A stretch of 64,000 nt of DNA from Thiotrichales bacterium. Its GTDB lineage: Bacteria > Pseudomonadota > Gammaproteobacteria > Beggiatoales > Beggiatoaceae. Below, piece after piece: positions 1,813-63,040 of the stretch. The position numbers and the translations under genes are program-made. A model generated the notes under the pieces. The model saw only the letters and a list, made by a program, of their open reading frames with translations, did no database searches and was not told the origin of the DNA. Location of the stretch: positions 248,433 to 312,432 of the forward strand of contig JADGDE010000002.1 in assembly GCA_016745035.1 (NCBI GenBank). Reading direction: 5' to 3'. The first letter of the stretch is position 1, and every line of letters begins with the position of its first letter.

Positions 1813-2204
1813 TTCCCCTCCGGTCATTTATCTATAAAACAAGGCGCGAGAAAAAACCTTTGCTCCTTGTAAAAATCTTTAACAGCTAAGATTCACGATT
1901 CTAGCATGTTTTAATGCTATTTTTGCGCACTAAACTGTTTAAGCTCAGTTTGGGGTCAATATTTTGCAGAATCTTAGAGCAATGACAAGACCAGCAAAAA
2001 CCAGCTTAAGCGCGATTAATCCCCGTTTTTAGCAAGTAACTGATGTTACGCACTAAGCTGGTTATCACAATAGTGTGATTTTCCACCTGCCTAGTGAAGC
2101 TTAGCCTTTGCGTAACATCAGCAAGGAAAGGAAAATTGTATTACAAAATACAGCCCTCGAATGGCGTATCAATGCCAATCGAGGCAGTAGAAAATTTAGA
2201 AGCG
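1813..2204. other. Intergenic region, 390 bp
   Basis: Apart from the short inverted-repeat element at 2040-2121 I see no RNA gene, ORF or clear terminator. The stretch 1855-2038 is unassigned. Confidence 0.5.
2040..2121. repeat. MITE-like inverted-repeat element, short form (copy A)
   Basis: 82 bp, begins CTGATGTTACGCA and ends TGCGTAACATCAG, a perfect 13-bp terminal inverted repeat. It lacks the central block (CCGCCATTGCTGCACGG plus hairpin) of the 132-bp form. The inner half-sites CACAATAGTGTG and CCTGCCTAGTG are shared with the other copies in the window. Confidence 0.9.
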
Positions 2205-2810
2205 TTAGTGTTTTTCCACCGAGTGATAGATTTTTTCCATCCACGCATAGAGCACGCCGGAGAGCAAAAACACCACATGGATAATCACCATCCACATGAT
2301 GACGCGGTCGTCCATATTATCCTTTTTAATTTGGATAAAGGCTTTTAGGAGTTCAATCGAAGAAATAGCGACAATCGAGCCGATGACTTTGAGCTTCATC
2401 GCTGTGTAGTCAATTTTGCCCATCCACTCAGGTCTATCGACATGGTCGGTGACCATATCAATTTTAGAAACAAAGTTTTCATAACCACTGAAAATAATCA
2501 TCAACAATAAATTGGTCACCAAAACCAAGTCCACTAAACTTAAGACCGCTAAAATAATCGCCGACCCATCGTCAGTTAATACGTTCGGAACCATATGTAA
2601 CAGTTCTTGCCCGAATTTGACGGTCAAAATTAACAGCGCTATCACCAAGCCAAGATATAAAGGCGCTAAAATCCAACGGCTGTGAAATAAGATCGCTTCA
2701 ATAAAATGCTCTAACCACATCAAGCTGCGGATACTGAAGCTCGGTGGCTGACAAGGCGGACATTCTTTTTCAGTTGTTTCCGCTGGCAATCCTTGCTTTT
2801 GCTCTTCCAT
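2205..2810 (-). CDS. yqhA: UPF0114 (YqhA-like) integral membrane protein
   Basis: 201 aa, matching the UPF0114/TIGR00645 family in length and pattern. About three to four hydrophobic segments are visible: roughly residues 46-66, 83-107, 142-160 and 174-192. The segment after the first helix (LEHFIEAILFHSRW region) and the motif NFVSKID are typical of the family. The first 30 residues are charged and Cys/Pro-rich. It lies 12 bp downstream of rpiA on the same strand, so the two are probably cotranscribed. No biochemical function is established for the family; a role in the cytoplasmic membrane is all that can be said. Confidence 0.85.
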   Translation of the reverse strand: MEEQKQGLPAETTEKECPPCQPPSFSIRSLMWLEHFIEAILFHSRWILAPLYLGLVIALLILTVKFGQELLHMVPNVLTDDGSAIILAVLSLVDLVLVTNLLLMIIFSGYENFVSKIDMVTDHVDRPEWMGKIDYTAMKLKVIGSIVAISSIELLKAFIQIKKDNMDDRVIMWMVIIHVVFLLSGVLYAWMEKIYHSVEKH

Positions 2811-2822
2811 GCTCAGCCCCTT

Positions 2823-3479
2823 TTACTCAACCACCTTAACGCCATTATCACTGCCAAGCAGTAAAATATCGGCAGGGTCAGCGGCGAATAAACCATTGGT
2901 GACCACACCGACAATTTGATTCAATTGGGTTTCGATTTTGACAGGCTCTTCAATTTGCCAATGATGCACATCGAGAATGATATTGCCATTATCGGTGGTA
3001 AAGCCCTCGCGCAACACCGGTTGTCCACCGAGTTTGACGATTTCACGCGCCACATAGCTGCGCGCCATCGGAATCACTTCGATAGGCAAGGGGAAAGCGC
3101 CGAGGGTATCGACCAATTTGCTATCATCAGCAATACAAACAAAACGGTCACTGGCAGCGGCAACGATTTTTTCCCGGGTCAGCGCGCCACCACCACCTTT
3201 AACTAAGTGTAAGTGATGGTTAGATTCATCTGCACCATCAATATAGACCGAAATCGCATCGACGGCATTTAAGTCAAATACAGGAATCCCATGACCACGT
3301 AGACGCTCAGCTGAGGCTTCAGAGCTGGCAACTGTGCCGTCGATTTTGCCCTTGATGCCCGCGAGTTCATCAATAAAACAATTGGCGGTGCTACCTGTGC
3401 CGACACCGATAATTGTCCCGGGGACAACGTGTTCTAAAGCGGCTTTAGCCACTTGTTGTTTTTTCTCTTCTGGAGTCAT
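2823..3479 (-). CDS. rpiA: Ribose-5-phosphate isomerase A
   Basis: 218 aa, full length. Interconverts ribose 5-phosphate and ribulose 5-phosphate in the non-oxidative pentose phosphate pathway. Recognisable motifs are [13 protein letters not shown] (phosphate loop), [16 protein letters not shown] with the catalytic acidic residues, [12 protein letters not shown] with the catalytic Lys, and the C-terminal ending [13 protein letters not shown]. The start is supported by AAGGA about 8 bp upstream. It heads a likely two-gene unit with the UPF0114 gene. A MITE-like element starts 37 bp upstream of its ATG, in the space shared with the divergent NHL gene, so any promoter must lie in or next to the repeat. 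Confidence 0.97.
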
Positions 3480-3516
3480 TTCTGTATCCTTATGAAAATA
3501 TGTTGATTGTTAATTT

Positions 3517-3643
3517 CTGATGTTACGCACTAAGCCAGTTTTTGCCACAAAAGGTGCTTTTCCACTTGCCTAGTGGTACAGCCGTGGAGCAATGGCGGTT
3601 TTTTGGCTTGTTAAAGCCTTGAGAAGCCTTTGCGTAACATCCG
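3517..3643. repeat. MITE-like inverted-repeat element, long form (copy B)
   Basis: 127 bp in the divergent gap between rpiA and the NHL protein gene. Left end CTGATGTTACGCA, right end TGCGTAACATCCG (one mismatch in the terminal repeat). It contains the central AGCAATGGCGG block; the inner hairpin is degraded (TTGGCTTGTTAAAGCC). No clear flanking direct repeat. Confidence 0.85.
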
Positions 3644-3752
3644 CTTAGTGTGATGATTTTCTAAATTCAAACTTGCCACTTTAACGCTTGTTGCTGTAAA
3701 TGTAAAAGTCTACAATGATAGCCGCCATATTTTAATCCACGAAGGGGAGCAA

Positions 3753-6700
3753 ATGTACCGCCTAAGCCTGTTGTTATTTAGCTATTTTTTACTCAGTTCT
3801 AGCCTTATGGCTGCCCCGATTGCTTATCAAATCAACCCTGTTGCGGGCAATGGCGAGTTGGGCTATAACAGCACGCTAGAAGCGCTTGAAACCCCATTTA
3901 ATTTACCCGTGGCTTTGGCTGAAGATGCCGCTGGCAACCTTTACATTGCCGATCAATATAATCATCGTATTCGCAAAATCAATCACGCAGGAGAAATCAG
4001 TGATGTGGCTGGCACAGGCACGGCAGGCTATAGCGGTGATAATGCCCCTGCCCTAGAAGCTGAATTAAATCTGCCTAGTGCACTGGTTTTTGACGCTGAT
4101 GGCAGTTTATATATTGCTGACAGTGGCAACCATGTGGTGCGTAAAATAGACTCCGAGGGCGTGATTAGCACGGTTGTCGGTAATGGCACAGCCGGCAGTG
4201 AGGGTAATAATACAGCGGGTGTTGATGCCCAACTCAATAACCCTCAAGGCTTAGCTTTTGATAGCGCTGGGCGCTTGTATATTAGTGATACCAATAACCA
4301 CCAGATTCGTTGGCTAGATACCGATGGCACGCTGTACTTGCTCGCAGGCAATAAAGAAGGCTTTGCAGGTGATAATGATCAGCTAGAAAAAGTCCGTTTG
4401 AGTTATTCCAAAGGCTTGGCTTTCAATGCACAAGGGCGTTTATTTATTGCTGACAGCGGCAACCACCGGATTCGTTTTCTCAATGCCCAATCACAATTAG
4501 AAACTGTAGCTGGTGAGGGAACGCCTGGTTTCTCTGGTGATGGTGGGGCAGCAACAAAAGCCCATTTACGCAAACCGCACCGGATTAGTTTTGACAAAAA
4601 CGGCGTGCTATATATTGCTGACAGTGATAATCACCGCATTCGACAAGTCGAAAACGGCATGATTAGCACTATCGCAGGCAGCGGCCCTACCGAGGTGGCT
4701 AACGGCGCGTATGGATTACTTCAAGGCGAGGGCAGTTTGGCAGCGCTAAACACGCCTTATGGTTTGCTTGCCAGTGAGGATAAAATTTATATTGCCGATA
4801 GTCGTAACCAGCGTATTCGAGCCTTAACCCCCAGCACTGAGACCAGCCGAGGCATAAAAACTATTGCGGGTAGTGGCAAAACGGGTTTACGTCAAGGTGG
4901 CTTTGCGGGAGAGCGCGTTGCTGCGCTGCAAGCACGATTAAACGTCCCCAGTGCGGTTGCTGTCGATAGCCAAGGCAAGACCTATATTGCTGATACCGCG
5001 AATCATCGCATTCGTCAAATTGATTCCCAAGGCGTGATTACAACCGTCGCAGGCATTGGAACCAGCGGTTATAGTGGCGATGGCAAAGCGGCAACCAAAG
5101 CGCAGTTACAACGCCCGGCGGGTTTGGCTATCGATGCCCAAGACCGCTTGTATATCAGCGATAGCGGCAACCATGTGGTTCGTCGCCTTGATAAAGGTAT
5201 GATTGAAACCATCGCCGGTAGCGGTGTCTCTGGTAAAGACCAAGAAACCATGCCTGCACCATTGGCGCGTTTTCACCGCCCTTTAGGCCTCGCTTTTGCA
5301 GCGGATGGCAGTTTATACATTGCCGATGCTGCCAACCATCAAATCAAGCGCTTAGTTGCCGAACAAGTTGAAATTGTCGCGGGCAGTGGTTACAAAGGCT
5401 TTGCCGGCGACGGTGGCAAGGCACTGGCAGCCAAATTCAATAAACCCAACGATGTTGCTTTTGATAGCGAGGGCAATTTATATATCAGCGACCAAGGCAA
5501 TAATCGCATTCGTCGTCTCGATAGTGAAGGCATGATTAACACCGTTTTAGGCACAGGCAAAAAACGCTACAGTCAAAACGGTATGGTGGCGAGCGAAACG
5601 CCTTTAGCCGCACCTGCGGGCTTAAAAATTGCCGCTGATTACCTTTATTTCAGCGAATTTTATAGCGACCGGGTTCGGGTTTTGCGCTTGGGCGCTGAGA
5701 CGTTAAGTACCTTTGCTGGCGCTGGGGTGATGGGCTTTAATGGTGATAATAATAGCGCTAGCAGCAGCCAGTTATACGCCCCCACAGGTTTGGCGATCAA
5801 TCCACACAGCCAAACCTTGCTTGTTGCCGATACCTACAATCACCGAGTCCGCAGCGTGCCTTTGTTAGCAAAGGTCAGCAAAGCCACGGAGCCAGAGACC
5901 GATGTAAGCGCAGAGATTGCCCCTGTCACTGAGCCAGAGGAGAGCGAACCAGCCGTCGAGCCTGAAACCAAGCCAGAGGAAATAGAGAAACCTGAATCTG
6001 AGGAAAAAGCAGACACACCTTCATCCGAGCCAATCACAGTGGATAGCAACACAGCAGCAGCTATCAATACAGAAACAGATGAGACAACAAAACCGACAAA
6101 CAGTACAACAGAGGAAAAAGCGAGTAACACCAGCGAGCAAGCCAGCACCAATGATACGGTCGATAGCAAGGACGAGCCAAACACGGTAAGCGTTGAAAAA
6201 CCCAGCGATAGCAAGCCCACAGCCGTTGTCACGCCACCAGTGAGTTTGCCTGCTGTGTTAGTCAAAAACCCTGCTGATACGCCTTATATGCAGCAAGACT
6301 TTGCTTGCCAATCACTGACCCACCCACAAGTGATTGCCCTCGATAAGTCTTACCAAGGCACAGCGCTATTGGATGAAATCAACCAACTGGATTTATTCAA
6401 ACAACAAGGCTGGCAAATGCAGCAAGTACCTAAAACGGGCTATTTACGTTTGAATCAAGATAATTTACGTTTGGCATTATGGCCCTTGCAATTGCACCAA
6501 CAAAAAAATCCAGCGGGCTTAGATGTCAGCGCCAATCAAGTCACCCGCTTTTATTTCAAAAAAGATCTGGTCTTGACCGCGCAGCCTGCTGCGCAAGCGC
6601 TGTGTGAATTACAAGGGCATTTTGCCGCGCAAGGGTATCCGCTGTTGCGTATGAATGCCGCAGGTAATATTCAAATAGGTAACTCAGAGCGCCCGATTGC

Positions 6701-7094
6701 TTTGAGTATGCGTCCGGATTGGATTTCCACCGAAGTCGCCGAGGGCGTATTCCCCGGGATTTTACTCAGCAATGCCTTATTTCCAGCCCAGCAGCTCGCT
6801 ATCGCTCAGGTATTTGTCGATGAGAAAAGTCGTTTACGGCGACAGTTTTTCTACCCCATGCCAGCGTTTGATTTAAGCCCTTATGTACAACAGTTGCAAA
6901 CCCCACCTTTTGAGCCGTTACAATTCAGCTATCAAGGTAAAGATTATCAAGGTTGGTTGGATGTTCATGTACAGAACGCGCCGCGTAGCAACCGTTTAGA
7001 AGTAAAATCTGTAGAGGATTTTAATGGGGATGGGCAAGCGGATTGGCGGATTGATTATCCACAAGGCTTTAGTCAATTACTGTTTGCAGAATAA
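3753..7094 (+). CDS. Secreted NHL-repeat (beta-propeller) protein with acidic linker and C-terminal domain
   Basis: 1113 aa. Residues 1-21 form a signal peptide ending SLMAAP, so export is expected. Twelve NHL-type repeats (pattern LYIADxxNHRIRxI followed by AGxGxxGxxGD) fill about residues 40-710, enough for two six-bladed propellers. A linker of about 120 residues rich in Glu, Thr, Ser and Pro follows (about 710-830). The C-terminal 280 residues form an unrecognised domain with two Cys, ending in DFNGDGQADWRIDYP, which resembles a Ca-binding DxNxDGxxD loop. AAGGGGAG before the ATG supports the start. It is convergent with ppk1. Propellers of this type usually bind proteins or ligands; no enzymatic motif is seen. 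Confidence 0.85.
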   Translation: MYRLSLLLFSYFLLSSSLMAAPIAYQINPVAGNGELGYNSTLEALETPFNLPVALAEDAAGNLYIADQYNHRIRKINHAGEISDVAGTGTAGYSGDNAPALEAELNLPSALVFDADGSLYIADSGNHVVRKIDSEGVISTVVGNGTAGSEGNNTAGVDAQLNNPQGLAFDSAGRLYISDTNNHQIRWLDTDGTLYLLAGNKEGFAGDNDQLEKVRLSYSKGLAFNAQGRLFIADSGNHRIRFLNAQSQLETVAGEGTPGFSGDGGAATKAHLRKPHRISFDKNGVLYIADSDNHRIRQVENGMISTIAGSGPTEVANGAYGLLQGEGSLAALNTPYGLLASEDKIYIADSRNQRIRALTPSTETSRGIKTIAGSGKTGLRQGGFAGERVAALQARLNVPSAVAVDSQGKTYIADTANHRIRQIDSQGVITTVAGIGTSGYSGDGKAATKAQLQRPAGLAIDAQDRLYISDSGNHVVRRLDKGMIETIAGSGVSGKDQETMPAPLARFHRPLGLAFAADGSLYIADAANHQIKRLVAEQVEIVAGSGYKGFAGDGGKALAAKFNKPNDVAFDSEGNLYISDQGNNRIRRLDSEGMINTVLGTGKKRYSQNGMVASETPLAAPAGLKIAADYLYFSEFYSDRVRVLRLGAETLSTFAGAGVMGFNGDNNSASSSQLYAPTGLAINPHSQTLLVADTYNHRVRSVPLLAKVSKATEPETDVSAEIAPVTEPEESEPAVEPETKPEEIEKPESEEKADTPSSEPITVDSNTAAAINTETDETTKPTNSTTEEKASNTSEQASTNDTVDSKDEPNTVSVEKPSDSKPTAVVTPPVSLPAVLVKNPADTPYMQQDFACQSLTHPQVIALDKSYQGTALLDEINQLDLFKQQGWQMQQVPKTGYLRLNQDNLRLALWPLQLHQQKNPAGLDVSANQVTRFYFKKDLVLTAQPAAQALCELQGHFAAQGYPLLRMNAAGNIQIGNSERPIALSMRPDWISTEVAEGVFPGILLSNALFPAQQLAIAQVFVDEKSRLRRQFFYPMPAFDLSPYVQQLQTPPFEPLQFSYQGKDYQGWLDVHVQNAPRSNRLEVKSVEDFNGDGQADWRIDYPQGFSQLLFAE

Positions 7095-7098
7095 TGGC

Positions 7099-7143
7099 AA
7101 GCGCGGCTAAAGTCGCGCCTGCGGGACTCAAGTCCCGGCGCTT
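7099..7143. terminator. Branched inverted repeat between convergent genes
   Basis: Outer arms AAGCGC/GCGCTT enclose two small stems, GCGCG/CGCGC and GGGACT-ca-AGTCCC. It sits exactly between the stops of the NHL gene and ppk1 and could end transcription from both sides; there is no strong T-run, so it may instead be an interspersed cruciform repeat. Confidence 0.5.
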
Positions 7144-9455
7144 TACTTAGCTTTGTTCCGCGACTTCTTACGTTTGCCCCCGGTTGCCAGTTTGTTTTTC
7201 TTCAACTGCCGGGCTTTGCGGTGTTTATTGTCATAAAAGGCAATCATGTGTGCTTGCGAAGAGATATGATCCGCATCCTCTTCAACGGCTAAACACGAGC
7301 TGCCATCGGCTTGCATTTCCCAACGACTGCGTTTGTCTTGCAGTTGGGTATCCAAAATCATTCGCAACTCACCTTTTAACTCGGCTTGATCTACCGGTGT
7401 CACGACCTCGACCCGGCTTTCTAAATTACGCTGCATCGCATCAGCCGAGCCAATATAATATTCGTCCGCGCCTTGATTACGGAAATAATAAATCCGTGAA
7501 TGCTCAAGAAAACGCCCGACCAAACTATAAATATGGATGTTGTCGGAAAAGCCCACGACACCAGGACGTAAACGACAAGTATCCCGGATAATCAAATCAA
7601 TCCGTACCCCACTGCAAGCGGCTTGGTACAGTGCTTTAGTGACATCGGCATCTTCTAGGGCATTCATTTTGAATTGAATCAACCCAGGGTTTTTCTCGGT
7701 GTGTAGTTTTGCCTCACGCTTGATATAGTCTATCAAGGTATTTTTCAAAATCTTTGGCGAGGGCAGGATTTTTTTGTATTGACGCTGTGGCGTATAGCCG
7801 GTGGTCAAATAATTAAACAACTGGGTTAAATCTGCGCCTAAATCCTGATCGCAGGTGAGCAAACCTAAGTCACTGTAAAGCCGCGCGGTATCGGCGTGAT
7901 AGTTACCTGTGCCGATGTGGGCATAACAGCGAATTTTGTTATAGCTATAATCTTGGCGCACCACCAAAATCACTTTGGAGTGGGTTTTTAGCCCGACAAT
8001 GCCATAGGTGACATGAATCCCGGCTTCTTCCATCCGGCTTGCCCAGCGAATGTTCGCCGCTTCATCAAAACGGGCTTTGAGTTCGACCCCGACGGCGACT
8101 TGCTTACCGTTGCGTGCAGCTCTGATTAAGTAATCGATGACTTTTGTGCCGCTGGAGGTGCGGTAAAGGGTCATTTTAATCGCTCGGACTTTGGGATCAT
8201 CCGCCGCTTCACGTAAAAAGCGTTCTACCGAAGTCGAGAAAGATTGGTAGGGGTGATGCAATAAAATCGAGCCATGCTCACGAATGGCGTGGAAAATACT
8301 CGGCGCATCGTGTAACAAAGGATGATCGGTGGGGAAATGCGGCTTATCGTGTAATTCTGGGAGTTTCAGCCCGGCAAGCTGGAACAAATCACACATGCCC
8401 ATCATGCCCTCGACCGCAAATACGTCGTTTTCCTCATCGAGACCTAATTCTGCGGCAAGCATCCCCTTATGCATCGTGGTCATGCTGTCTTGTACTTGCA
8501 AACGGACGATGGGCGCAAAACGCCGATCACGCAGCTCCGATTCAATCATGCTGAGTAAATCATCGGCATTGTCTTCGTTGCGCTCAGTATTCGCATTGCG
8601 GGTGACGCGGAAGGTTTCACAACTTAAAATTTCGACATCAGGAAAGAGTAAATCCAAGTTACTGGCAACCACATCTTCAATCGGTACAAAATGGTTTTTA
8701 TCTTCGTTGATTTGTAAAAACCGTGGTACACCCGCACCGACGGGAATTTTTACCCGCGCCATGGTTGGCAAAGGCGCATTTTTCGGGCGCAAGGTCACTA
8801 AAAGGTTTAGGGATAAATTAGAAATAAACGGGAAAGGATGCGCCGGATCCATGCCTTGCGGGGTCAAGAGCGGAAAAATATTTTCAAAATACTGATCGCG
8901 CAATTTCGTTTGGATTTTACTATCGATCTGCGAATAACGGTGGACGACAATGTCCTCTTGCTCTAACTGCTTAAGTAATTTGCTCAAAAACTTGCGCTTG
9001 TCTTTTTCCAGCAATTTAACCATGTGATAGCAATCATCGGTTTGCTGTTGTGGTGTTCGGCCATCAACGGTGACGCTTTGAATCCCCGCGCCAACCAATT
9101 GTTTTAGCCCACCGATGCGTTTCATAAAAAACTCATCGAGGTTATTGCTGACAATGGCGATAAATTTCAGGCGCTCTAAGAGGGGGTTGCGGGGATCTTG
9201 CGCCTCGTTCAATACCCGCTGATTAAAACTCAGCCAGGTTAATTCGCGGTTAAGATAAAGTTCAGCATCATCCAAGCTTGTCTCTGCGGCAATTTCTTTG
9301 CTGCGACACAACGCTTCGGTATAACGGAATTTTGGCTCTGTTTGCCCCATCGCTGATTCATCCAAGGTTGTTACGTTAAGCTCAAGCCCCAAAGCAATGA
9401 TGTCGATAATTAAGTCACCATTGCTCGGCAAGATAAAAAGATAAGCATACACCAT
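7143..9455 (-). CDS. ppk1: Polyphosphate kinase 1
   Basis: 770 aa as read from 9455. Makes polyphosphate from the ATP gamma-phosphate, reversibly. The N-domain begins at YLNRELTWLSFNQRVLNEA; the two phospholipase D-like catalytic domains carry the histidines in GLKTHSKV (about residue 493, phospho-His) and EHSRIYYF (about residue 650). The C-terminus is Lys/Arg-rich. The first 35 residues precede the usual family start; MGQTEPKF, starting at 9350, is a plausible alternative, but neither start has a strong ribosome-binding site. It is divergent from the STAND gene and convergent with the NHL gene, so it is probably monocistronic. Identification is certain, the start is not. Confidence 0.96.
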   Translation of the reverse strand: MVYAYLFILPSNGDLIIDIIALGLELNVTTLDESAMGQTEPKFRYTEALCRSKEIAAETSLDDAELYLNRELTWLSFNQRVLNEAQDPRNPLLERLKFIAIVSNNLDEFFMKRIGGLKQLVGAGIQSVTVDGRTPQQQTDDCYHMVKLLEKDKRKFLSKLLKQLEQEDIVVHRYSQIDSKIQTKLRDQYFENIFPLLTPQGMDPAHPFPFISNLSLNLLVTLRPKNAPLPTMARVKIPVGAGVPRFLQINEDKNHFVPIEDVVASNLDLLFPDVEILSCETFRVTRNANTERNEDNADDLLSMIESELRDRRFAPIVRLQVQDSMTTMHKGMLAAELGLDEENDVFAVEGMMGMCDLFQLAGLKLPELHDKPHFPTDHPLLHDAPSIFHAIREHGSILLHHPYQSFSTSVERFLREAADDPKVRAIKMTLYRTSSGTKVIDYLIRAARNGKQVAVGVELKARFDEAANIRWASRMEEAGIHVTYGIVGLKTHSKVILVVRQDYSYNKIRCYAHIGTGNYHADTARLYSDLGLLTCDQDLGADLTQLFNYLTTGYTPQRQYKKILPSPKILKNTLIDYIKREAKLHTEKNPGLIQFKMNALEDADVTKALYQAACSGVRIDLIIRDTCRLRPGVVGFSDNIHIYSLVGRFLEHSRIYYFRNQGADEYYIGSADAMQRNLESRVEVVTPVDQAELKGELRMILDTQLQDKRSRWEMQADGSSCLAVEEDADHISSQAHMIAFYDNKHRKARQLKKNKLATGGKRKKSRNKAK

Positions 9456-9579
9456 TAGTGTATTTTAGGCGATATGGCTTTGCTGGCAGCCCTTATTTAT
9501 GAACGCAAGGCCACGTCGAAATTCAGTGAAAAATACGTTATAATGCTTACGTTTAAGCAAGCTCAATCAAGGATATGCG

Positions 9580-11556: not shown

Positions 11557-11563
11557 AGCAGCT

Positions 11564-12393: not shown

Positions 12394-12440
12394 GCGTTAC
12401 GCACTAAGCTAATTTTTTGTCTCAATTAGCCTAAGAATAA
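12394..12440. repeat. Fragment of the MITE-like element (copy C')
   Basis: Only the left half is present (GCGTTACGCACTAAGCT, then TTTTTTGTCTCA), resembling the 85-bp subfamily seen at 35905-35989. It lies 11 bp from an intact copy. Confidence 0.6.
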
Positions 12441-12450: not shown

Positions 12451-12582
12451 CTGATGTTACGCAAAGGCTTCTTTTTCTACCTTAAGGGTAGAAAAAACCG
12501 CCATTGCTGCACGGCTAAACTTCACTAGGCAGGTGGAAAATCACACTATTGTGATAAAAACCGGCTTAGTGCGTAACATCAG
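12451..12582. repeat. MITE-like inverted-repeat element, full 132-bp form (copy C)
   Basis: Perfect ends CTGATGTTACGCA/TGCGTAACATCAG. Internal order: AAGGC, hairpin TTTCTACCTT-AAGGGTAGAAA, CCGCCATTGCTGCACGG, CACTAGGCAGGTGG, CACACTATTGTG, GCTTAGTG. It is flanked by the exact direct repeat TTAAATG (12444-12450 and 12583-12589), as expected from transposition. The rest of the 12239-12759 gap shows nothing else. Confidence 0.92.
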
Positions 12583-15636: not shown

Positions 15637-15694
15637 TTTTACTGCTCCAACTCGTTCCCACGCTCTGGCGTGGGAACGAGTTGGAGCAGTAAAA
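15637..15694. repeat. Perfect 27-bp-stem hairpin repeat (GTTCCCACGC/GCGTGGGAAC core)
   Basis: Arms of 27 bp pair perfectly around a TCTG loop; the outer ends are TTTTACTGCTCC and GGAGCAGTAAAA. Situated just after the GbsR-like gene and before the operon it may control, it could stop read-through. A related arm (GGGAACGAGTTGGAG then TAGTAAAATC) occurs in the small element nested at 28676-28787, so it is an interspersed repeat. Confidence 0.8.
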
Positions 15695-15726
15695 TCAGAG
15701 CTGTTAATGTCGTATACAGCCGCCCC

Positions 15727-16336: not shown

Positions 16337-16446
16337 CTGATGACCTCTCAATACCCCAAACCACCATTGCTACACGGCTAAACACGACTAGGTTGGTAGG
16401 AAATTACTTTAATTGTGGCAAAAACTGGCTTAGTGCCTCACATCAA
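16337..16446. repeat. Degenerate MITE-like element (copy D)
   Basis: Both ends are damaged (CTGATG... and ...CACATCA), but the inner order CCACCATTGCTACACGGCTAA, GACTAGGTTGGTAGGAAA, TTAATTGTGGCAAAAACTGGCTTAGTG clearly follows the 132-bp form. It occupies most of the 350-bp gap before cysS. Downstream, AAGCCTTTGCGT at 16564-16575 may be one more end fragment. Confidence 0.75.
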
Positions 16447-27417: not shown

Positions 27418-27470
27418 TGTCTTATATCCAATTTATTCGGAGCTTCAGCTTTTCAACGTGTTTTTATTTA

Positions 27471-27528
27471 TCTGAATTGTGGTTTTCCATTTGCCCAGTG
27501 ATATTTAGCCGTGGAGCAATGGCGGTTA
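27471..27528. repeat. Fragment of the MITE-like element (copy E)
   Basis: Right half only: GAATTGTGG, TTTTCCATTTGCCCAGTGATATTTAGCC, GTGGAGCAATGGCGGTT. It ends at the stop codon of the MFP gene, so part of that gene's 3' boundary derives from the repeat. Confidence 0.7.
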
Positions 27529-28581
27529 TTTGTCATGCTTTGATGTGGGGCAAGCAGGCTCAGCATTCACCGTCTCACCCGCTTCTATTTGTTGTTGTCC
27601 ATAGACCATAACTAAGCTATCAGGGCTTAAATCTTTAACTTTAACGCTGCGCCCTGCTAAGGCTGCGGGTAGCGGGTGAAATTGGGCGATATTGTCTTTG
27701 TTCACCCACATCAAGCCTAAGGTTTGTTCGCGGCTAACGACATAATTTGCAGGCAGGTTTTTTTGTGGGTTTTGCCATTGTAATAAGGCTTGCAAACCCA
27801 CAGGCGGCACGGGTGTGCTAGCTTCTAAAATCACTTGATATAAATGTCGCTTGGCTTCGAGCTGGGGCAAAATACTATAGAGGCTCACAGGGTAGCTTTG
27901 TGCCCCATCTTTGAGTTGTAAGTGCTCCGCGTTTTTGAGGCTGTGTTGTTGGCTTTTGTCTAAAAAAGCATGGATTTCGACTTGCTCTGGGTCAAGTAGC
28001 TTAAACAAGGGCTGTCCTGCGTTTATCCATGCACCTGTGCCGATGTGTTTTACCACAATCACACCGCTAAACGGGGCTTTTATGTTGGTTTTGCCAATAT
28101 TGTGGGCAAGTTGTTGTTGTTGGACTTTGAGGCTTTGTTGGTCGGCGTTAAGGCTGGCGAGTTCTGCCTCGCGCTGGCGTAACACTTGTTCGGATATGCC
28201 ATTTTTAGCATGGAGTTTTTTTGCTTGTCTGCGTTGGTAGCGAGCCAGTTTGATTTGTGCTTGAATGCCTTTGAGCTTGGCGCTTAGCTGTTCGGCTTGT
28301 AGTTTGAGGTCAGTGGCATCGATGGCGGCAAGCAAGTCTCCCGCTTTCACTGGCTGTCCTGTGTAGCTAACATTGAGTTGTCGCAATTTGCCTGCGATTT
28401 CACTGCTAATCTCGGTTTGTTCGCGGGCATGTACGCTAGCACTGACTTGTTGTTGGCTATGCTGCAATAATTGCGACAGTGGGCAAGTACCAACTGTTTG
28501 GGGGGCTGCGGCGTAAAGCGGCAGGGCATAACTTAAAAAAACGGCGGTAATATATTTATGAGTCGAGAGCATTTTATTCAA
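27526..28581 (-). CDS. Periplasmic adaptor (membrane fusion protein) of an efflux system
   Basis: 351 aa. N-terminal signal sequence (YITAVFLSYALPLYAAAP). Biotinyl-lipoyl half-motifs EISSEIAGKLRQLNVSYTGQPVKAGDLLAAID and KAPFSGVIVVKHIGTGAWINAGQPLFKLLD bracket a coiled coil (about 90-165), followed by beta-barrel and membrane-proximal domains: the RND-type MFP/HlyD layout. It would link an inner-membrane pump to an outer-membrane channel, but neither gene is adjacent. It could serve a pump encoded elsewhere. The stop codon abuts the repeat fragment at 27471-27528. Confidence 0.85.
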   Translation of the reverse strand: MNKMLSTHKYITAVFLSYALPLYAAAPQTVGTCPLSQLLQHSQQQVSASVHAREQTEISSEIAGKLRQLNVSYTGQPVKAGDLLAAIDATDLKLQAEQLSAKLKGIQAQIKLARYQRRQAKKLHAKNGISEQVLRQREAELASLNADQQSLKVQQQQLAHNIGKTNIKAPFSGVIVVKHIGTGAWINAGQPLFKLLDPEQVEIHAFLDKSQQHSLKNAEHLQLKDGAQSYPVSLYSILPQLEAKRHLYQVILEASTPVPPVGLQALLQWQNPQKNLPANYVVSREQTLGLMWVNKDNIAQFHPLPAALAGRSVKVKDLSPDSLVMVYGQQQIEAGETVNAEPACPTSKHDK

Positions 28582-28634: not shown

Positions 28635-28833
28635 CTGATGTGACACACTAAGCTGTTTTTGTCACTGTAAAGTGATACCAATTTTAATATTAATAGCTCC
28701 GATTTTACGCGCCGCTGGAGCGACGCAATACGCATTCCCAAGCTAGAGCTTGGGAACGAGTTGGAGTAGTAAAATCTAGGATTGGTATGATTTTCCATTT
28801 GCCTAGTCGTATGTAGCTTTTGCGTCACATCAG
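28635..28833. repeat. Short-form MITE-like element interrupted by a second element (copy F)
   Basis: Ends CTGATGTGACACA and TGCGTCACATCAG. Removing 28676-28787 plus one TGA copy leaves an 84-bp short form very like copy A. Lies in the 297-bp gap between the MFP gene and the 84-aa gene. Confidence 0.82.
28676..28787. mobile_element. Nested 112-bp element with TACCAAT ends
   Basis: Ends TACCAAT and ATTGGTA are inverted repeats; TGA is present once in intact relatives of the host element and occurs on both sides here (28673-28675, 28788-28790), a 3-bp target duplication. The interior carries TCCCAAGCTAGAGCTTGGGA and an arm shared with the hairpin at 15637-15694. No ORF. Confidence 0.68.
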
Positions 28834-28878: not shown

Positions 28879-29133
28879 TTAATTTTTCTTTTTCTTCAAT
28901 GCCCGCAGTGCATCAACACCTTTGCAGCGTTGAGCATAGACAATGGCTAGTTTTTTGTTGAGCTGTTGGCGTTTTTCTGGATCTTGTTCTTGCGCCAACT
29001 TATGTTTAAGGGTTCTTTCTTTTTTTTTCAGTTTATCCAAAATCTCCTTGAAACATTTGGTTTTTTTATATTGTTCAGCTTGATCGGCTGAGAGAAACCT
29101 TTGAACAATTTTTAAAAGCTTGGGAGTTTTCAT
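28879..29133 (-). CDS. Small basic helical protein, hypothetical
   Basis: 84 aa, very rich in Lys, with heptad-like helical segments (about 20-60: KCFKEILDKLKKKERTLKHKLAQ) and a poly-Lys end. GAGG precedes the ATG. It lies 15 bp after the Na/Pi symporter-like gene on the same strand, so the two probably share a transcript. No family recognised; a nucleic-acid- or polyphosphate-binding role would fit the charge but is a guess. Confidence 0.6.
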   Translation of the reverse strand: MKTPKLLKIVQRFLSADQAEQYKKTKCFKEILDKLKKKERTLKHKLAQEQDPEKRQQLNKKLAIVYAQRCKGVDALRALKKKKN

Positions 29134-31123: not shown

Positions 31124-31255
31124 CTGATGTTACGCAAAGGCTTTTTTTTCTGCCTTAAGGGCAGAAAAAACCGCCATTGCTGCACGGCTAAGCTTCACTA
31201 GGCAAGTGGAAAATCACACTATTGTGATAAAAACCAGCTTAGTGCGTAACATCAG
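31124..31255. repeat. MITE-like inverted-repeat element, full 132-bp form (copy G)
   Basis: Perfect 13-bp ends and a complete interior with the hairpin TTTCTGCCTT-AAGGGCAGAAA. Flanked by the 8-bp direct repeat TTACGTCT (31116-31123 and 31256-31263). It ends 26 bp before the first possible mlaF start codon. The rest of the 30940-31281 gap shows nothing else. Confidence 0.93.
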
Positions 31256-35904: not shown

Positions 35905-35989
35905 CTGATGTTACGCACTGATCGTTTTTTTGTCTCATTATTCAAGTTTTTTACTTGTCTAGTGATACTTAGCCTTTGCGTAACATCAG
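35905..35989. repeat. MITE-like inverted-repeat element, 85-bp subfamily (copy H)
   Basis: Ends CTGATGTTACGCA and TGCGTAACATCAG. The interior differs from the 132-bp family (TTTTTGTCTCATTATTCAAG, TTACTTGTCTAGTGATACTTAGCC) and matches copy I at 42066-42128 in reverse. It lies 8 bp from the stop of the GNAT cassette gene, where an attC would be expected. Confidence 0.88.
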
Positions 35990-42065: not shown

Positions 42066-42128
42066 TTGATGTGACGCAAAGTATCACTAGGCAGGTAAAA
42101 AACTTGAATAATGAGACGTAACATCAAT
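42066..42128. repeat. MITE-like element, 85-bp subfamily, deleted (copy I)
   Basis: TTGATGTGACGCAAAG ... ACGTAACATCAA. The interior TATCACTAGGCAGGTAAAAAACTTGAATAATGAGAC is the reverse of copy H with the left inner part missing. It sits in the divergent gap between leuB and the membrane protein gene. Confidence 0.8.
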
Positions 42129-45323: not shown

Positions 45324-45388
45324 CTGATGTTACACCTAGGTGTCTTTTTTCTATTTAAAGGTAAAAACTGATAAATTCGTAACATGAG
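45324..45388. repeat. Degenerate MITE-like element (copy J)
   Basis: CTGATGTTACACC ... TTCGTAACATGAG, about 65 bp with a diverged interior. It lies 79 bp before an intact copy in the same 317-bp gap upstream of dapD; nothing else is seen there. Confidence 0.6.
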
Positions 45389-45466: not shown

Positions 45467-45598
45467 CTGATGTTACGCAAAGGCTTCTTTTTCTGCCTTA
45501 AAGGCAGAAAAAACCGCCATTGCTGCACGGCTAAGCTTCACTAGGCAGGTGGAAAATCACACTGTTGTGATAAAAACCAAGTTAGTGCGTAACATCAG
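45467..45598. repeat. MITE-like inverted-repeat element, full 132-bp form (copy K)
   Basis: Perfect 13-bp ends; interior nearly identical to copy G. Flanked by the exact direct repeat TTATTTA (45460-45466 and 45599-45605). It ends 26 bp before the dapD start, so the ribosome-binding region lies just outside the element. Confidence 0.94.
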
Positions 45599-46446: not shown

Positions 46447-46505
46447 TTGATGTTACGCACAGGCTTCTTGAGTCTATTAGGGTATTAAAAAGCGTTTGCG
46501 TGGGC
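46447..46505. repeat. Fragment of the MITE-like element (copy N)
   Basis: One end only, TTGATGTTACGCACAGGCTTCTT, beginning at the dapD stop codon; the other end is lost. Confidence 0.5.
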
Positions 46506-55625: not shown

Positions 55626-55657
55626 CAGTCACCTAGGCGATACACCGGATGCTAGAC

Positions 55658-56017: not shown

Positions 56018-56304
56018 TATTGACTCCTAGAAGTTCATCTTTATTGTCTTTAGAATCGGGTGTGCTATCGCAGTATCTCAACGGTAGTCATTCAAGCATC
56101 AGTACATCTCGGTCGGTGACCATTGTCGCCTTACATAACCTTGTTTATAAACTAAGCGCCTGAAACATTGTGCTAAATTCCAACCGTTTTCTCAATAGTG
56201 CGTCCATACTGTTCACACTAGATCTAGCAAACGGGTGTCATTTTACTGTTTTTTTAGCGATAAGGCTATTTCTATAGATAAAATCCTAAATTTAAGCTAC
56301 GGAT
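56018..56304. other. Intergenic region, 287 bp
   Basis: Separates the large kinase gene from the receiver gene on the same strand; probably holds the promoter of the receiver gene. No repeat element or RNA gene recognised. Confidence 0.4.
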
Positions 56305-59300
56305 TTAATCTAGTTTGACCTCAATTTGATAAATTTGTTGCGCTTGAGCTTTACCTTTAAGATTGACGCTTTCACCAGCGATGATGGGCGGTTTTTTATC
56401 CCAATCTTGGAGTGCTAAATAAACACTCTTAGAAATAATAATTTTATCTTTACTGGCGATATTGGTTAGACGTGAAGCCACGTTTACCGTGTCACCAATC
56501 ACCGTATAGTTCATATAATTGGGCGAACCGACATTGCCGACAATCATATCACCTTTGTTGACACCAATGCCGAGTCCGACCTCGCCATGGTATTTTTGTC
56601 GCCAATTCACTTGAATTTCGGCAAACTCTTGTTGCATTTCCAACGCTGCTTGGATAGCTTTACGGGTTGGGTAGTTGACCGAAAACGGCACACCAAAGCC
56701 AATTAGGAGGCAATCGCCTGCCATATTAAAAATCGTGCCTTCATGGCGATATGCTACCCGCGTGAGCATGGAGAAGAAATCATTGAGTAAAGACACAACT
56801 TCCAAAGGTTGCAAGCTTTCAGATAAAGCGGTAAATCCACGTAAATCCGCAAATAAAACCACAGCATCTTGACGATTGCGCTTATTGGTCAACGCCAATT
56901 CGGCTTTTTCTGGATTAACTAAAATTTTATCGACCAGCGCAGGGGAAATGTAACGCTTGAACATATTGGTTAATTGTTCATGATGCGCTGACTCTAGGGC
57001 TTTGCGTGCTTGTTGATAACGCAGTAACGAGCGCACGCGGGCGAGTAATTCTTCGCGGTTAATCGGTTTGGATAAAAATTCATCTGCGCCGGCTTTAATG
57101 CCCTCGATTCTATCGGACTGCCCTTCAAGCGCGGTAATCAATACCACTGGCATCAACACGCTTTGAGGGTCATTTTTAATCCGTCGACAAACTTCAAAAC
57201 CATCCATCCCCGGCATCATTACGTCTAAAAGTACCATGTCGGGTTGGTTGATCATGATTTTATCTAAGGCATCCAAACCACTGTTAGCGGTAATGACTTG
57301 ATAATTTTCTTCGACTAGATAGTTGCCTATGATCAAGGTTTCATAAGGTTGATCATCAACAATTAAAATTTTCTTTTGCTCTTGAATCCGTAATTCATCA
57401 ACCGTTTGTTCTTGTTCTAATGAAACAACAGGCTGGGTTTCGACCTCTGCTGTTTCCTCATCATCAGATGCAGGGGCATAGCTGAAGCTGTCGGCATTAT
57501 TTTGTTGTAATTTATTTAAAAGTTGCTTAAAGGCATGGTGTGTTTGATCATAAGCCTGTTCGATAGGCTCTAAACATTGTTTTTTATCGCCCAATTCTCC
57601 CGTTTTACTCACCTGTTCCAAATGTTGACAATGGTTTGCCAGCTCACTTGCACCTAGGTTTGCGCTACTGGATTTGAGCGTATGGGCAGCTAGATTGACA
57701 TTATTATGATTCTGAGCATCACAAGCGGAACGCAAATCTTGCATGAGCTGCTCGCTACTTTCCAAGTAAGTTTCAATCAATTCAGACATGATTTCAGGGT
57801 CGTTATCACCGACCAATACTTGCATAGCATTTTCAAAAATAGATACTAATTGTGAATCATTATTTGAAGCATGGTTCGGTTCGTCGTCAGGTTGTGCATT
57901 ATCTGCTGTACTGTCATCCTCTTCTTCCAAATTGACCATTTGCTTCAATACACGGATAACTTGTTGGTATAAGGCTAATGCTTCGTCTAAAGGCGCTTGT
58001 GCTGCACTTAAATCGCCGGCACGTCCTTTGAATTCTAAATCTTTGCACAATTCGCTCAAGCGCTGCGCCCCTAAGCTGCCACTACTTGATTTTAAACTAT
58101 GTGCTGCCCGTTGCATTTGTTCTGGGTTGTTAGCGTCCCAAGCCGTTTGCATTTCTCCGGTCAGTTGTTGACCACCATCAAGATAGGCTTGCACTAATTC
58201 GGTCATAATATCCATATCACCAGCGGTGATTTCATTCATTGCCGCCACAATGTCGTCTTTTAATGCTGGGTCAATACTATTGCTATTAGCTTGGACGTGC
58301 TTATCATCATTCGTCGTCGTAACACTGAGATCTTCAGCATCGTTAGCTTCTTCTGCTGCCGGAGGTTCTATCATCGCCAGTAATTCGGGATTATGCGTTA
58401 CACAACGTTCAAGCCCTTCTTGTAGTGCTTGTTTTTTTACCGGTTTAGAAATGTAATCATCCATGCCCGCTTCGAGACATTTTTCGCGATAACCTTGCAT
58501 CGCATGAGCCGTCATGGCGATGATATAGGGGCGTTCTTTAGCATCAGGATAACGTTTATGAATTTCCTTGGTTGCTTGCATCCCATCCATCACCGGCATT
58601 TGCACGTCCATGAAAATGGCATGGTAGCTATTTTGTTCTAACAAGCTCAGTGCCTCAGCCCCATGATTGGCAATATCAACGCTAAAACCCAGTTTGCTTA
58701 ACAACAATGCAGCCACTTTTTGATTGGTTTTATTATCTTCAACTAATAATAAATTCAATTCCTTGGGCAAACTCACATTGGATTGTATACGTTTTTCTTT
58801 TGAAAGCACATTCACCGAATTGGTTGAGAAAATTTTATCTAAACCTTTAAATAAGGCATGTAATTTCAATGGCTTAACTAAGTGGGCTATCAAGATATTT
58901 TCATCCGCTTCCCGTAAGCGATAACCTAGCTGACTGAGTAATGCCACGGGGGTTTGATGTAAATGTTTCACTGTTTTTGCAAACTCAATCCCCTCGATAT
59001 GACTATCCAACATTTGATCACAGATTAATAAATCCACGGGGGTTTGTGGAGATTGGATATAATCCAAGGTTTCTTCTGTGGTATTGAAACTCGTGACTTG
59101 GCAGCCTAAAAAGTTTAATTGTGCTTTGAGGGAATGATGCGTGCCTGCGTGAGGACATAAAATGACAATTTGTTTTTGTTGCCACACATCGGGGCTGCGC
59201 CAAGCAAAATTGGTACTATTGGGTTCTGCCTTAGGTACAACAATGGTGAATTTGAAAATAGCTCCGGTCTCGTTACCGGTATTTTTTTCTAGCCAAATGC

Positions 59301-60798
59301 CACCGCCCATTAACTGACACAATTGCTTACTAATGACCAAACCTAAGCCTGTGCCACCATAACGTCGGGTGCTGGATGAATCAATTTGGCTAAAGGACTT
59401 AAATAAACGTTCGGCATCTTCGGCACTGATACCAATGCCACTGTCTTGAACACAAAATTCTAGCTGTAACTGTTGTTTTGCTAAACTTTGCATTTTTATT
59501 GATAAGCTAACTTGCCCAACATCAGTAAATTTCACCGCATTATTGAGTAAATTAATTAAAATTTGCCGCAGACGAATAATATCGCCAATGACTTCTGGTA
59601 TATCTTGCGGTTCAAAATTAACCACCAATTCTAAATTTTTCTCCACCACTTTTGGCGTAATAATATCTAACGCAGATTCAACACAGTCACGAATGCTAAA
59701 GACATCATGTGCCAACTCTAATTTATCCGCATCAATTTTAGAAAAATCTAAAATGTCGTTAATTAAACGGATTAGAGAATCGCCACTGGTACGTGCTGTA
59801 CGGAGCATATCTAATTGTTCATCACTCAATTTGGTGTCAAACAACATGTCGATCATACCGATAACCCCGTTCATCGGTGTGCGAATTTCATGACTCATAT
59901 TGGCGAGGAAAGCACTTTTAGCGCGCGCAGCAACCACAGCCGCATCTTTAGCGGCTTTAAGATCGGTGATGGTATATTGCAGACGCTCATTGGTATTGGA
60001 GAGGTCTTTGGTACGAGCGCTGACTAAAGATTCGAGTTGATCACGATGATCTTTGAGCTGTTGATCCCGTTGTTCTACGCGGGTCAACATTTGATTAAAG
60101 GTGGTGACTAACTCGCCTAATTCATCATTATTAAAGCGTTTAGCCCGCAGTGAATAATCATTATGGGCGCGGACTTGGTTAGCAACATGAATTAATTGAC
60201 TTAAGGGATGAGAAATCACCCGTTGCAGGCGTTTGGCAATCAAAAAACCAATAAAACTACTGATAACAAAAACCAGTAAACTGAAGATAAGAAAGTTCTT
60301 TAACAGGATAATCAAAGGCGTGGTACGCGCTTGTATATATAAAATCCCGTGAATTTTATTTTTCTTATCGGTTAAATTATGAAATTCATAAACGTAAGGT
60401 GCGGTCAAATCATGGTTATCTGCCATTAACGCTTGCGCTTTTTCAGGATTAAAAAAACTCGTTTCAGCTTGGCTATCGACTCTGACATAACGACTGAGTT
60501 CTTTGCCCTTGGCATCATAAACCGCAGCAGAAATGACATTCGGCTCAATCTCTAAACTGCTTAATTGTTTAGAAATTTGTTCTGTGTCTTTGAAACGAAT
60601 CGCAACCTGGGTGTGAAAAGCAATACTTTTTGCGTGAATTTTGAGGGCGGTGAGTTTTTCATCACGAAGATTATGCGCCTGATTGAAGGCAAAAAAGGCG
60701 GAGGCAAGCAAGAGAGAGAACATATTGATCACCATCATCATGATGATCAGTTTGTTTTTGATGCGTGTATCAGCAAAGCGTTGGCGGATACTCATCAA
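56305..60798 (-). CDS. Giant hybrid histidine kinase with two HPt domains and a C-terminal class III cyclase
   Basis: 1497 aa. Order: TM1 (17-38), periplasmic segment (40-160), TM2 (165-188), HAMP (190-243), coiled coil, HisKA (His303 in SHEIRTP), HATPase_c (about 405-520), degenerate receiver (545-655), receiver (683-800, Asp731), HPt (845-915, His900), HPt (985-1060, His1039), receiver (1143-1260, Asp1192), cyclase (about 1308-1495). Cyclase metal Asp1318 and Asp1362 are present; the residue aligned with the adenine-selecting Lys is Asn (IFNMAGD). A whole phosphorelay plus nucleotide output in one chain. Start overlaps the stop of the YfiR-like gene. Confidence 0.93.
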
Positions 60799-61412
60799 GG
60801 TGCTCCGCAGTGACTATCTTTACTTAAATCAACCAACTCAAGTAGGGCACTTGCGACCCCCACTTTAGCTTGTTCAAGACGAGGATATTGCATATGTAAA
60901 TTAATTCGATCACCAATAGATACTTCAAATTGCACCATGCCACAATATTCGGTGAAATCCTCCATATCAGACACGGTTAAAACAGCATGGTTGCTTAATA
61001 CATTTAATAGATCTTTCATATCGACTAAGTCTTGTATGTCATCGTGTATAAATAAAATGTGACATGAACTGGCTTGTTCTAGCACTTGCTGATCTTTATC
61101 GAGTAGTTTTTTCGCCAATGCACTCTCAAATTCGACAATTTCTAACGGATGTCCATCTTCGGTGTTCACCTCGGAATCTACGGTGGTGTGTAAGGCAACA
61201 AGCAGAGCCTCATGTCCGCCGAGAACACAGATATTAAAAGGACTATCATCGCCAAGACGTTCCTCAGGCCAGGTCATAAATGAGCTGAAATTATAGAGAA
61301 ACACTGCCTCAAGCTCTTCAAGCGTCGCCGCAGGCGTTGCACTGATTAGCCCGCCATGCAATGAAATGCAAAATAGCAAGAACAGCTTGTAAAAATGTTT
61401 AAGTTTTTTCAT
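60795..61412 (-). CDS. YfiR-like periplasmic protein (DUF4154)
   Basis: 205 aa. Signal peptide (about 1-25: [15 protein letters not shown]), then the DUF4154/YfiR pattern: [58 protein letters not shown]. In Pseudomonas YfiR is a periplasmic inhibitor of a membrane c-di-GMP cyclase. Here it is translationally coupled (4-bp overlap) to the giant kinase, whose 120-residue periplasmic segment is the natural partner. It probably controls that kinase's activity in response to envelope or redox state. Confidence 0.88.
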
Positions 61413-61785
61413 AAAAAATGTAAAAATTATGCAACACAGATTTTAATGTTTAGTATCTGAGTTACAGTCAATCACTAAATCATTACGCATGGGACTGCAT
61501 ATCTAAAGCCCATAATGTAATACCGCAGTTATGGTTGTTCATAAATATTAAGATTCCAAACCAAAGTGGATCTATGCTGTTGCAATCAATAGCGCCCGTT
61601 AGCACAAGGATAAAACCAATCATTGCCTTGTTTATCGTTCATGATTCAAGCACGCTATATTGCCCTAAAACTGCTTGGGCGGTATGTTAGCATTTGTCTG
61701 TGTGCAAATCACCTGTAATTTTATAAAATTCTGTGTTTAACAGGGCATTGTTACACAATAATAGCCTAGGCATGACAGCAAGTTA
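61413..61785. other. Intergenic region, 373 bp
   Basis: Between cysQ and the YfiR-like gene, both on the minus strand. Expected to hold the promoter of the signalling operon. No ORF, RNA gene or copy of the repeat family seen. Confidence 0.4.
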
Positions 61786-62616
61786 TCAAACTTGTGAGGC
61801 TAAATACGCCTCAAGACAGCTTAACCAATCTGGGTGCGTTTGACTAAAAGTCAAAAAATAAGGATTAAGTAAACTATCTTTGCCATTATAAGGTAAACGT
61901 TCACGGGCTAAATTGGTCAACTGCCCACCTGCTTCCTCGACCACACATTGCGCCGCTGCCGTATCCCATTCCGATGTCAGTCCCAAACGCGGGTATAAAT
62001 CAGCTTTACCCTCAGCCACCAGACACATTTTCAAAGAGCTGCCGATACTCATGCGTTTAATATCGCCAAGGCAAGACATAAAGTCTTCTAAAGCCCCAGA
62101 ACCATGAGAGCGACTGCCGGCAATGCTTAACTGCCCCGATTGCCACGGACGCACTTGGATTTTCTCCGCCTCAGCATTGGCTGTTGCGCGTTTATATGCC
62201 CCTGTACCTGAGGCGGCATAATACACCACACCCGTAACAGGTACTAATACCACACCAATCACCGGAAAGCCCTGATGGATGAGCGCAATATTAACGGTAA
62301 ACTCATCATTGCGTTTAATAAACTCTTTGGTGCCATCGAGCGGATCTATCAACCAATACGTTTGCCATTGTTGCCGCTCACTATAAGGAATATCTGCCGC
62401 TTCTTCAGACAAAATAGGAATATCTGCTGTGAGTTCAGCTAATGCCTGACAAATAATTTCGTGCGAAGCCTTATCTGCCCGCGTGAGAGGAGAATCATCA
62501 CCTTTGGTTTCCACAGCAAAATCATCACTGTGATAAACAGCCAAAATGGCATCGGCTGCTTGCTCAGCAATTGTCACTAATGCAGGTAATAAACGCGCAT
62601 AATCAGCTGTATTCAA
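61786..62616 (-). CDS. cysQ: 3'(2'),5'-bisphosphate nucleotidase CysQ
   Basis: 276 aa, start TTG at 62616 with GAGGA about 8 bp upstream. Inositol-monophosphatase superfamily: GDDSPLTRADKASHE, LSEEAADIPY, metal site WLIDPLDGTKEFI and EWDTAAAQCVVEEAGG. Hydrolyses PAP and PAPS, limiting build-up from sulfate assimilation. Single gene; a repeat copy ends 28 bp from the start codon on the promoter side. Confidence 0.95.
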   Translation of the reverse strand: MNTADYARLLPALVTIAEQAADAILAVYHSDDFAVETKGDDSPLTRADKASHEIICQALAELTADIPILSEEAADIPYSERQQWQTYWLIDPLDGTKEFIKRNDEFTVNIALIHQGFPVIGVVLVPVTGVVYYAASGTGAYKRATANAEAEKIQVRPWQSGQLSIAGSRSHGSGALEDFMSCLGDIKRMSIGSSLKMCLVAEGKADLYPRLGLTSEWDTAAAQCVVEEAGGQLTNLARERLPYNGKDSLLNPYFLTFSQTHPDWLSCLEAYLASQV

Positions 62617-62643
62617 AATCGATCCTCAACTCAATGATATTTA

Positions 62644-62774
62644 CTGATATTACGCAAAAGCTTTCTTTTTGCCCCAAAAGGCAAAAAAACCGCCATTACT
62701 GCACGGCTGAATACCACTATGCAGGTGGAAAATCCGCCTATGGTGGCAAAAACTGTGTTAGTGCGTAACATCAG
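62644..62774. repeat. MITE-like inverted-repeat element, full form (copy L)
   Basis: 131 bp: CTGATATTACGCA ... TGCGTAACATCAG (one mismatch), hairpin CTTTTTGCCCC-AAAAGGCAAAAA, CCGCCATTACTGCACGG. Flanked by ATATTTA (62637-62643) and ATATTTG (62775-62781), six of seven matching. Between cysQ and copy M. Confidence 0.88.
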
Positions 62775-62910
62775 ATATTTGCAAAAAACAGAACTCATAT
62801 TCTAGCATTAAATCAGCATATATTTTTATCTCATTGTGCAAAAACCAGAGAGCAAAACTCCAGCTATCATAGTGAATTGAACGCGCTTACGTTACAATAG
62901 CAACGCTAAA

Positions 62911-63040
62911 CGGATGTTACGCATTAAGCCTGTTTTGCCACAATAAGGGGCTTTTCATCTGCTCTATGGTATTTAGCTGTGAAGTAATGGCTTCTTTCTG
63001 TGCTTTAAAGGCACAGAAAGAAGCCTTGGCGTAACATCCG
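62911..63040. repeat. MITE-like inverted-repeat element, long form (copy M)
   Basis: 130 bp, ends CGGATGTTACGCA and GGCGTAACATCCG, a variant with CGG instead of CTG at both tips. The central hairpin is CTTTCTGTGCCTTT-like (CTTCTTTCTGTGC/GCACAGAAAGAAG, 62991-63024). It lies 49 bp before aceE, opposite in orientation to copy L. Confidence 0.88.

Follow-up and report, generated by a model that had tools for sequence, protein, structure and literature searches.

We analyzed a stretch of 64,000 nucleotides from a Thiotrichales bacterium of the family Beggiatoaceae (contig JADGDE010000002.1, positions 248,433 to 312,432), referred to below at its full length as the window, for which a preliminary description had listed 15 copies of a short palindromic repeat. 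These palindromes are, very probably, miniature inverted-repeat transposable elements (MITEs) cut and pasted in trans by a Tn5-like DDE transposase of a 1.1-kb insertion sequence (IS) that has the same 13-bp ends. Four observations carry this conclusion: (i) the ends of the MITEs and of the IS are identical; (ii) both are flanked by target duplications of the same length, 7-8 bp; (iii) both prefer the target TTANTAA; and (iv) short forms of the MITE bear their own duplications. Judging from these sequence features, the IS transposase would recognize the 13-bp ends on the MITEs, which would suffice for mobility, and would have moved the MITEs in trans, by a Tn5-type cut-and-paste reaction.

An element is present at all 15 places listed in the preliminary description, with both ends in 11 cases and as a fragment or one-ended copy in four. 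The 13-mer CTGATGTTACGCA, allowing up to three mismatches, has 39 matches in the window, versus 16.6 expected (sd 3.8), and none of 100 shuffles reached 39; a strict profile scan (E <= 1e-4) alone recovers 10 of the 15 places. The sizes originally given hold as well (full form 127-132 bp, short form 82-85 bp), with further sizes of 62 bp (42066), 65 bp (45324) and 199 bp (28635), the last because another element is nested inside. By eye, the short copies seem to have arisen from the full form by loss of modules and not to be a family of their own. The copies had been placed in intergenic gaps or at gene ends; none of 10 window copies lies inside a gene call and one shares 42 bp with a gene end, the calls here and below being those of a heuristic caller of ours, which is not a published program. 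The absence of a transposase from the window agrees with genome-wide searches, limited to PF01609 and the partner transposase, neither of which gave a match within the window.

The genome that contains the window (G000; 4,184,469 bases in 90 contigs, 99.6% complete) has 340 exact 13-bp ends, 168 and 172 by strand, and the reversed control sequence has none. Using a 132-base query, we obtained at least 40 full or near-full copies with 95-100% identity (40 scored of 477 candidates), and with a covariance model built from 24 copies all 150 candidates that were scored matched over the full length, which sets the number of full copies at 150 or more. Direct counting of 72 elements in 640 kb (C11:1-400000 and C22:1-240000) extrapolates to approximately 470 elements genome-wide, fragments included, which makes the family unusually abundant.

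Target duplications were studied in 66 end pairs from 744 kb; for these counts, as for those of gene placement below, copies were in corrected orientation, and the corrected alignment omits two shorter rows. Perfect duplications of 7 bp were found in 20 pairs and of 8 bp in 12, while perfect duplications of 5, 6, 9 and 10 bp were found in none of the 66; perfect 4-bp duplications (4 of 66) were as frequent as in the control. The spans of the end pairs are mostly 62-133 bp, with four at 173-223 bp, one of these nested. Some copies have inserted next to one another: for example, at C22:30648-30872 one copy is flanked by two ATAGTAA and lies directly ahead of an older copy, and there are head-to-tail arrays of three copies (L227) and two copies (L228) with one 7-8 bp target between neighbors. 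In L227 two neighbors are identical by eye, so that recombination and repeated insertion are equally likely sources of that array.

An IS with the same ends is present in the genome, outside the window, as a relic, and in relatives as intact elements. The relic (L094:1262-2073, 812 bp), to which a genome search with PF01609 led, starts with the exact 13-mer, ends with its complement save for one base and carries two open transposase pieces of 72 and 185 residues. Both are assigned to NF049921 (NCBIfam), one with 171.9 bits and the other with 54.7, below the 250-bit cut-off. Intact relatives are about 1.1 kb long, so some 0.3 kb is gone from the middle of the relic. An IS5-like element lies near it (L094:238-1250; NF033581, E 4e-15, below cut-off).

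The partner transposase was found in 23 of the 115 genomes searched, including G000. Intact IS in which both ends are the exact 13-mer, flanked by a 7-bp duplication, occur in two Beggiatoaceae genomes, G032 (TCAATAA) and G039 (TTAATAA), and likewise in Methylobacter tundripaludum (L144), Polaromonas glacialis (L160), a gammaproteobacterial metagenome-assembled genome (L129) and a Xenococcaceae cyanobacterium (L128, TTATAAA). In a Limnohabitans element (L177), which shares the ends and is flanked by a duplication, a stop interrupts the aligned stretch; in L101, L106 and L136 an end differs by one to three bases. The IS from named genomes were sampled from 304 confirmed stretches: 80 of these were retained, and ends were looked for in 56. 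Partner IS duplications are mostly 7 bp and some are 8 bp, and the length is 1095-1191 bp in 13 end-to-end elements, some of them without an intact gene. The symmetrized consensus of the duplications, TTANTAA, was obtained both for 14 IS (six with variant ends; 7-bp duplications, with 8-bp ones left out) and for 20 MITEs. All four intact partners that were scanned score 325-380 bits with NF049921, above the cut-off, the YREK motif (Y271, R274, E278 and K285) is invariant in 18 of 18 transposases, and modeling suggests a Tn5-like partner transposase.

No intact partner transposase was found in G000, where the copies found are all broken or partial: five matched stretches have open frames of 38-193 residues, versus about 350 in intact relatives, none of them near a contig end, and in one (L122:1300-2000) the similarity stops after about 100 residues. 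The MITE family is therefore probably stranded in this genome and no longer moving, unless the 90 contigs of the assembly happen to lack an intact copy.

Several results weigh against the interpretation of the copies as MITEs moved by the IS transposase. The right end of the relic is one base off the 13-mer, and many or most of the 56 scanned IS records have no clean end pair with a perfect duplication. Among the MITEs themselves, 34 of the 66 end pairs are without a perfect 7-8 bp duplication, which would be expected of old copies and equally of copies that never transposed. The 42 genomes of the same GTDB family include no second genome of the genus in which insertions could be compared. In addition, two probes from the MITE interior had no match inside the IS that were read, the ends alone being common; descent by internal deletion is thus unsupported, and we rejected the MITE as an internally deleted IS. 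A possible exception is G032, whose own IS and own MITEs share, by eye, TTCCAAAAG after the end.

The interior is present in diverged form in two other genera, represented by G013 (11 matches) and G015 (17 matches), and was not found by the covariance model in eight other genomes, with 150 candidates scored per genome; a 30-bp match in G105 (E 3e-4) was not confirmed by the model. A G013 query matches six of the 42 family genomes, namely G000, G013, G015, G006 (30 bp), and G001 and G035, which match its first 38 bases (85-87%), suggesting that the left edge of the interior is more widespread than the whole.

Both the interior and the placement of the copies bear on the possibility that these are former MITEs now kept as structured elements of transcript 3' ends (a processing site or terminator) at gene ends, which we consider unlikely. 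Among 82 elements in 704 kb, 76 are intergenic, four are inside gene calls and two are unplaced. Same-strand gaps hold 47 of them: the upstream stop codon is at most 20 bp away in 24 cases and the downstream start codon in one, versus 6.8 each in random placement, and none of 2000 random trials reached 24 near stops. This pattern favors a 3' role; however, it is also predicted by the target, as TTANTAA includes TAA and insertion could therefore rebuild a stop codon, and by selective loss of harmful, start-proximal insertions, either of which would suffice. The orientation of the copies is mixed. The other intergenic copies are in divergent (24) and convergent (5) gaps, whereas gap lengths, which include the elements themselves, predict about 16 and 8 (and 52 same-strand); this is the opposite of the expectation for terminators, and, with five convergent copies of 76, a bidirectional terminator finds no support as the main role. 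Terminator-like sites number 32 in the one region scanned, versus 21.4 expected, and two of them, on the minus strand, are inside full copies. More in favor of a 3' element is the left hairpin, whose arms change in concert in three genera so that pairing is preserved, although not in every copy. The 38 distinct hairpins between constant parts average -9.5 kcal/mol, versus -4.8 (sd 0.45) for arm-swapped chimeras, with 0 of 100 as low; six of 56 copies were dropped (anchor not found), and of those kept some hairpins are weak and two fold at 0.0. It should be noted that related copies inflate this comparison, and that hairpin-templated repair would yield an equal result without selection. Eight folded window sequences (seven copies, one on both strands) have z from -3.5 to -8.4, each surpassing 200 of 200 shuffles. 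Conversely, the hairpin module is absent from the 85-bp forms, in some of the full copies the left hairpin is weak or lacking, and RNAalifold found almost no covariation in a 24-row alignment; we attribute the latter to misaligned hairpins of different subfamilies, and for this reason the separate arm-swap comparison was made. Any function beyond parasitism is hypothetical.

The dense, palindromic and mostly intergenic copies also resemble palindromes of the repetitive extragenic palindromic (REP) type moved by a REP-associated (HUH) enzyme. HUH enzymes are not known to make a target duplication, whereas perfect 7-8 bp duplications flank 32 of the 66 end pairs and the ends are common to a DDE IS, which makes this origin extremely improbable. 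There is somewhat more to be said for a MITE family that is still moving, by means of an intact transposase that is missing from the draft or arrives from relatives: the assembly is in 90 contigs, some copies are closely similar to one another (>=95% for 15 of 42 sampled; genome-wide, up to 98% to the window query), and intact IS relatives are present in the same GTDB family. This too we think rather unlikely, as the five matched transposase stretches, in short open frames, lie away from contig ends and none of 42 sampled full copies exceeds 97% identity to its best neighbor, the tandem neighbors of L227 aside. A MITE family moved in trans by the IS transposase, and now probably immobile in G000, remains the preferred explanation: the elements are short (<500 bp), encode no transposase, have terminal inverted repeats and 7-8 bp duplications, occur in many, mostly intergenic copies and have an IS partner with the same ends, and the MITE assignment of the preliminary description is upheld.

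The exact 13-bp end occurs in 32 of the 42 family genomes (reversed control, 1 in total), with the highest counts in G032 (739), G035 (338), G037 (194) and G022 (139), besides G000. These genomes span 25 genera, in agreement with the number in PMC11172852. Five of eight genomes searched have end pairs with a spacing of 90-120 bases, and their interiors are, by eye, unlike those of G000. A TTC box about six bases after the end is common to 76 ends in loci from other genomes (95%, 95% and 88% for its three bases) and is less clear in the two end types of G000. In the wider family, the end behaves as a shared ticket used by different palindromic cargoes. A bolder and doubtful proposal is that the 13-bp end is a family-wide currency, taken up repeatedly by unrelated palindromic interiors, each lineage having its own swarm, and that the interior of the G000 lineage is a selected 3'-end transcript hairpin, with its paired changes in three genera.

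The MITE end together with the target forms the junction TAACTGA, which accounts for 58 of the 138 TAACTGA in 744 kb of G000; tandem TAACTGA pairs number 0 in this genome. Three other family genomes, G017, G039 and G025, have 679, 738 and 254 overlapping tandem pairs. Across the 42 genomes, end counts correlate with tandem counts (rho 0.41, p 0.006, not corrected for kinship), and the two most end-rich genomes are array-poor (G032, 5; G000, 0). The arrays as footprints of MITE excision were considered and not established: none of 36 arrays in the fetched loci, overlapping loci included, reaches a MITE end.

These results point to a probable mover for a dense swarm of bacterial MITEs, a Tn5-like IS group whose 13-bp end is identical in a cyanobacterium (L128) and methanotrophs (L144). 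They also offer a reading of the repeat-rich genomes of giant sulfur bacteria, given the presence of the end in most family genomes and at up to 739 exact copies, and make the question of intergenic palindromes testable at the bench, with two 13-bp ends and one enzyme.

Table 1. Copies of the MITE in the window. E values are from a profile whose seeds included reverse-oriented copies.
Positions	Strand	Element	13-bp ends	Basis
2040..2121	-	Short form, 82 bp	Both	Both ends exact; profile match
3517..3643	-	Full form, 127 bp	Both	End matches and profile match
12394..12437	-	Fragment, damaged left end, adjoins copy at 12451		Sequence by eye
12451..12582	+	Full form, 132 bp, 7-bp duplication TTAAATG	Both	Ends, sequence, profile
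16338..16446	+	MITE without left end	Single (listed at 16337)	Profile match; 16347-16446 at E 2e-14
27451..27553	-	Interior fragment, overlaps gene end		Profile match, E 4e-10
28635..28833	-	MITE holding nested different repeat (~28676-28787)	Both	Both ends <=2 mismatches; sequence
31124..31255	+	Full form, 132 bp, 8-bp duplication TTACGTCT	Both	Ends, sequence
35905..35989	-	Short form, 85 bp	Both	Ends; sequence
42066..42127	+	Degenerate short copy, 62 bp	Both	Both ends <=3 mismatches
45324..45388	+	Degenerate short copy, 65 bp	Both	Both ends <=2 mismatches
45467..45598	+	Full form, 132 bp, 7-bp duplication TTATTTA	Both	Ends, sequence, profile
46447..46490	+	One-ended fragment, right border uncertain	Single	Left end <=1 mismatch; repeat family D3
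62644..62774	+	Full form, 131 bp	Both	Ends and profile match
62911..63040	-	Full form, 130 bp	Both	Ends and profile match

The nested repeat in the copy at 28635 is different from the MITE, with ends TACCAAT/ATTGGTA and the core TTCCCAAGCTAGAGCTTGGGAACGAG; a related core is found at 15645-15696 of the window, and a 15-bp probe hits six more places in 640 kb. Two open reading frames (ORFs) of the window were also recorded. A long ORF (3753-7094) has six 51-base direct repeats with a spacing of 165-540 and perhaps encodes a repeat protein of beta-propeller type, which is a guess; a small ORF (28879-29133) has a weak, sub-threshold match (E 5e-4) to a family of type III secretion needle proteins.

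The preliminary description recognized no named family with these ends. In support of this, the window has no Rfam match at the gathering threshold, and the 13-mer is not printed in any paper text of the literature searched, which omits most subscription papers and does not cover ISfinder. A sequence search of solved structures gave none at E 0.01. Bacterial MITEs such as ERIC, Correia, RUP/BOX, QMITE2 and Chunjie are, in the available text of a review (PMC10969869), short and palindromic, with terminal inverted repeats, direct repeats and intergenic positions. QMITE2 has repeats of 7-9 bp and lies for the most part in 3' untranslated regions, pneumococcal elements are inserted within each other, and ERIC reaches 711 copies in Photorhabdus. 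The present family has this shape and placement in common with them; its ends, its partner enzyme and its interior set it apart from those described there, and neither IS4 nor IS701 is mentioned in the review. In a literature search for MITEs of Beggiatoaceae or of IS4 and IS701, the sole close case among the matches listed was the hupL MITE of Thiomargarita nelsonii, which is found on 260 of 439 contigs and has 19-bp inverted and 10-bp direct repeats (PMC4853749, available part). It is also a Beggiatoaceae MITE and is set apart from ours by these described repeat lengths. The TAACTGA repeats of Beggiatoaceae (MacGregor 2015; PMC4679880) are unexplained tandem heptamers, whereas in G000 TAACTGA arises at the junction of MITE end and target.

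A close counterpart is IS701_2 (NF049921), with the same 13-bp ends, 7-8 bp duplications and TTANTAA targets as the MITE; it differs in being autonomous, 1.1 kb long and with an interior absent from the MITE. By its NCBIfam name the partner enzyme belongs to the IS701 family, yet it fails the published features of that family, which in the available text of PMC2266710 are a 4-bp duplication and the absence of a complete YREK motif: the partner has 7-8 bp duplications and a complete YREK, and differs in size as well. By these criteria it is not IS701. The ISPepr1 subgroup of IS4, which the same text describes as 1500-1600 bp long with YREK and 7-8 bp duplications, fits in part. The partner is alike in YREK, duplication length, AT-rich targets and CT at the tip, and six of eight conserved end positions match by eye, although it is 1.1 kb rather than 1.5-1.6 kb long. 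MITEs of this kind are thus already known, and the present family is a new and well-supported one.

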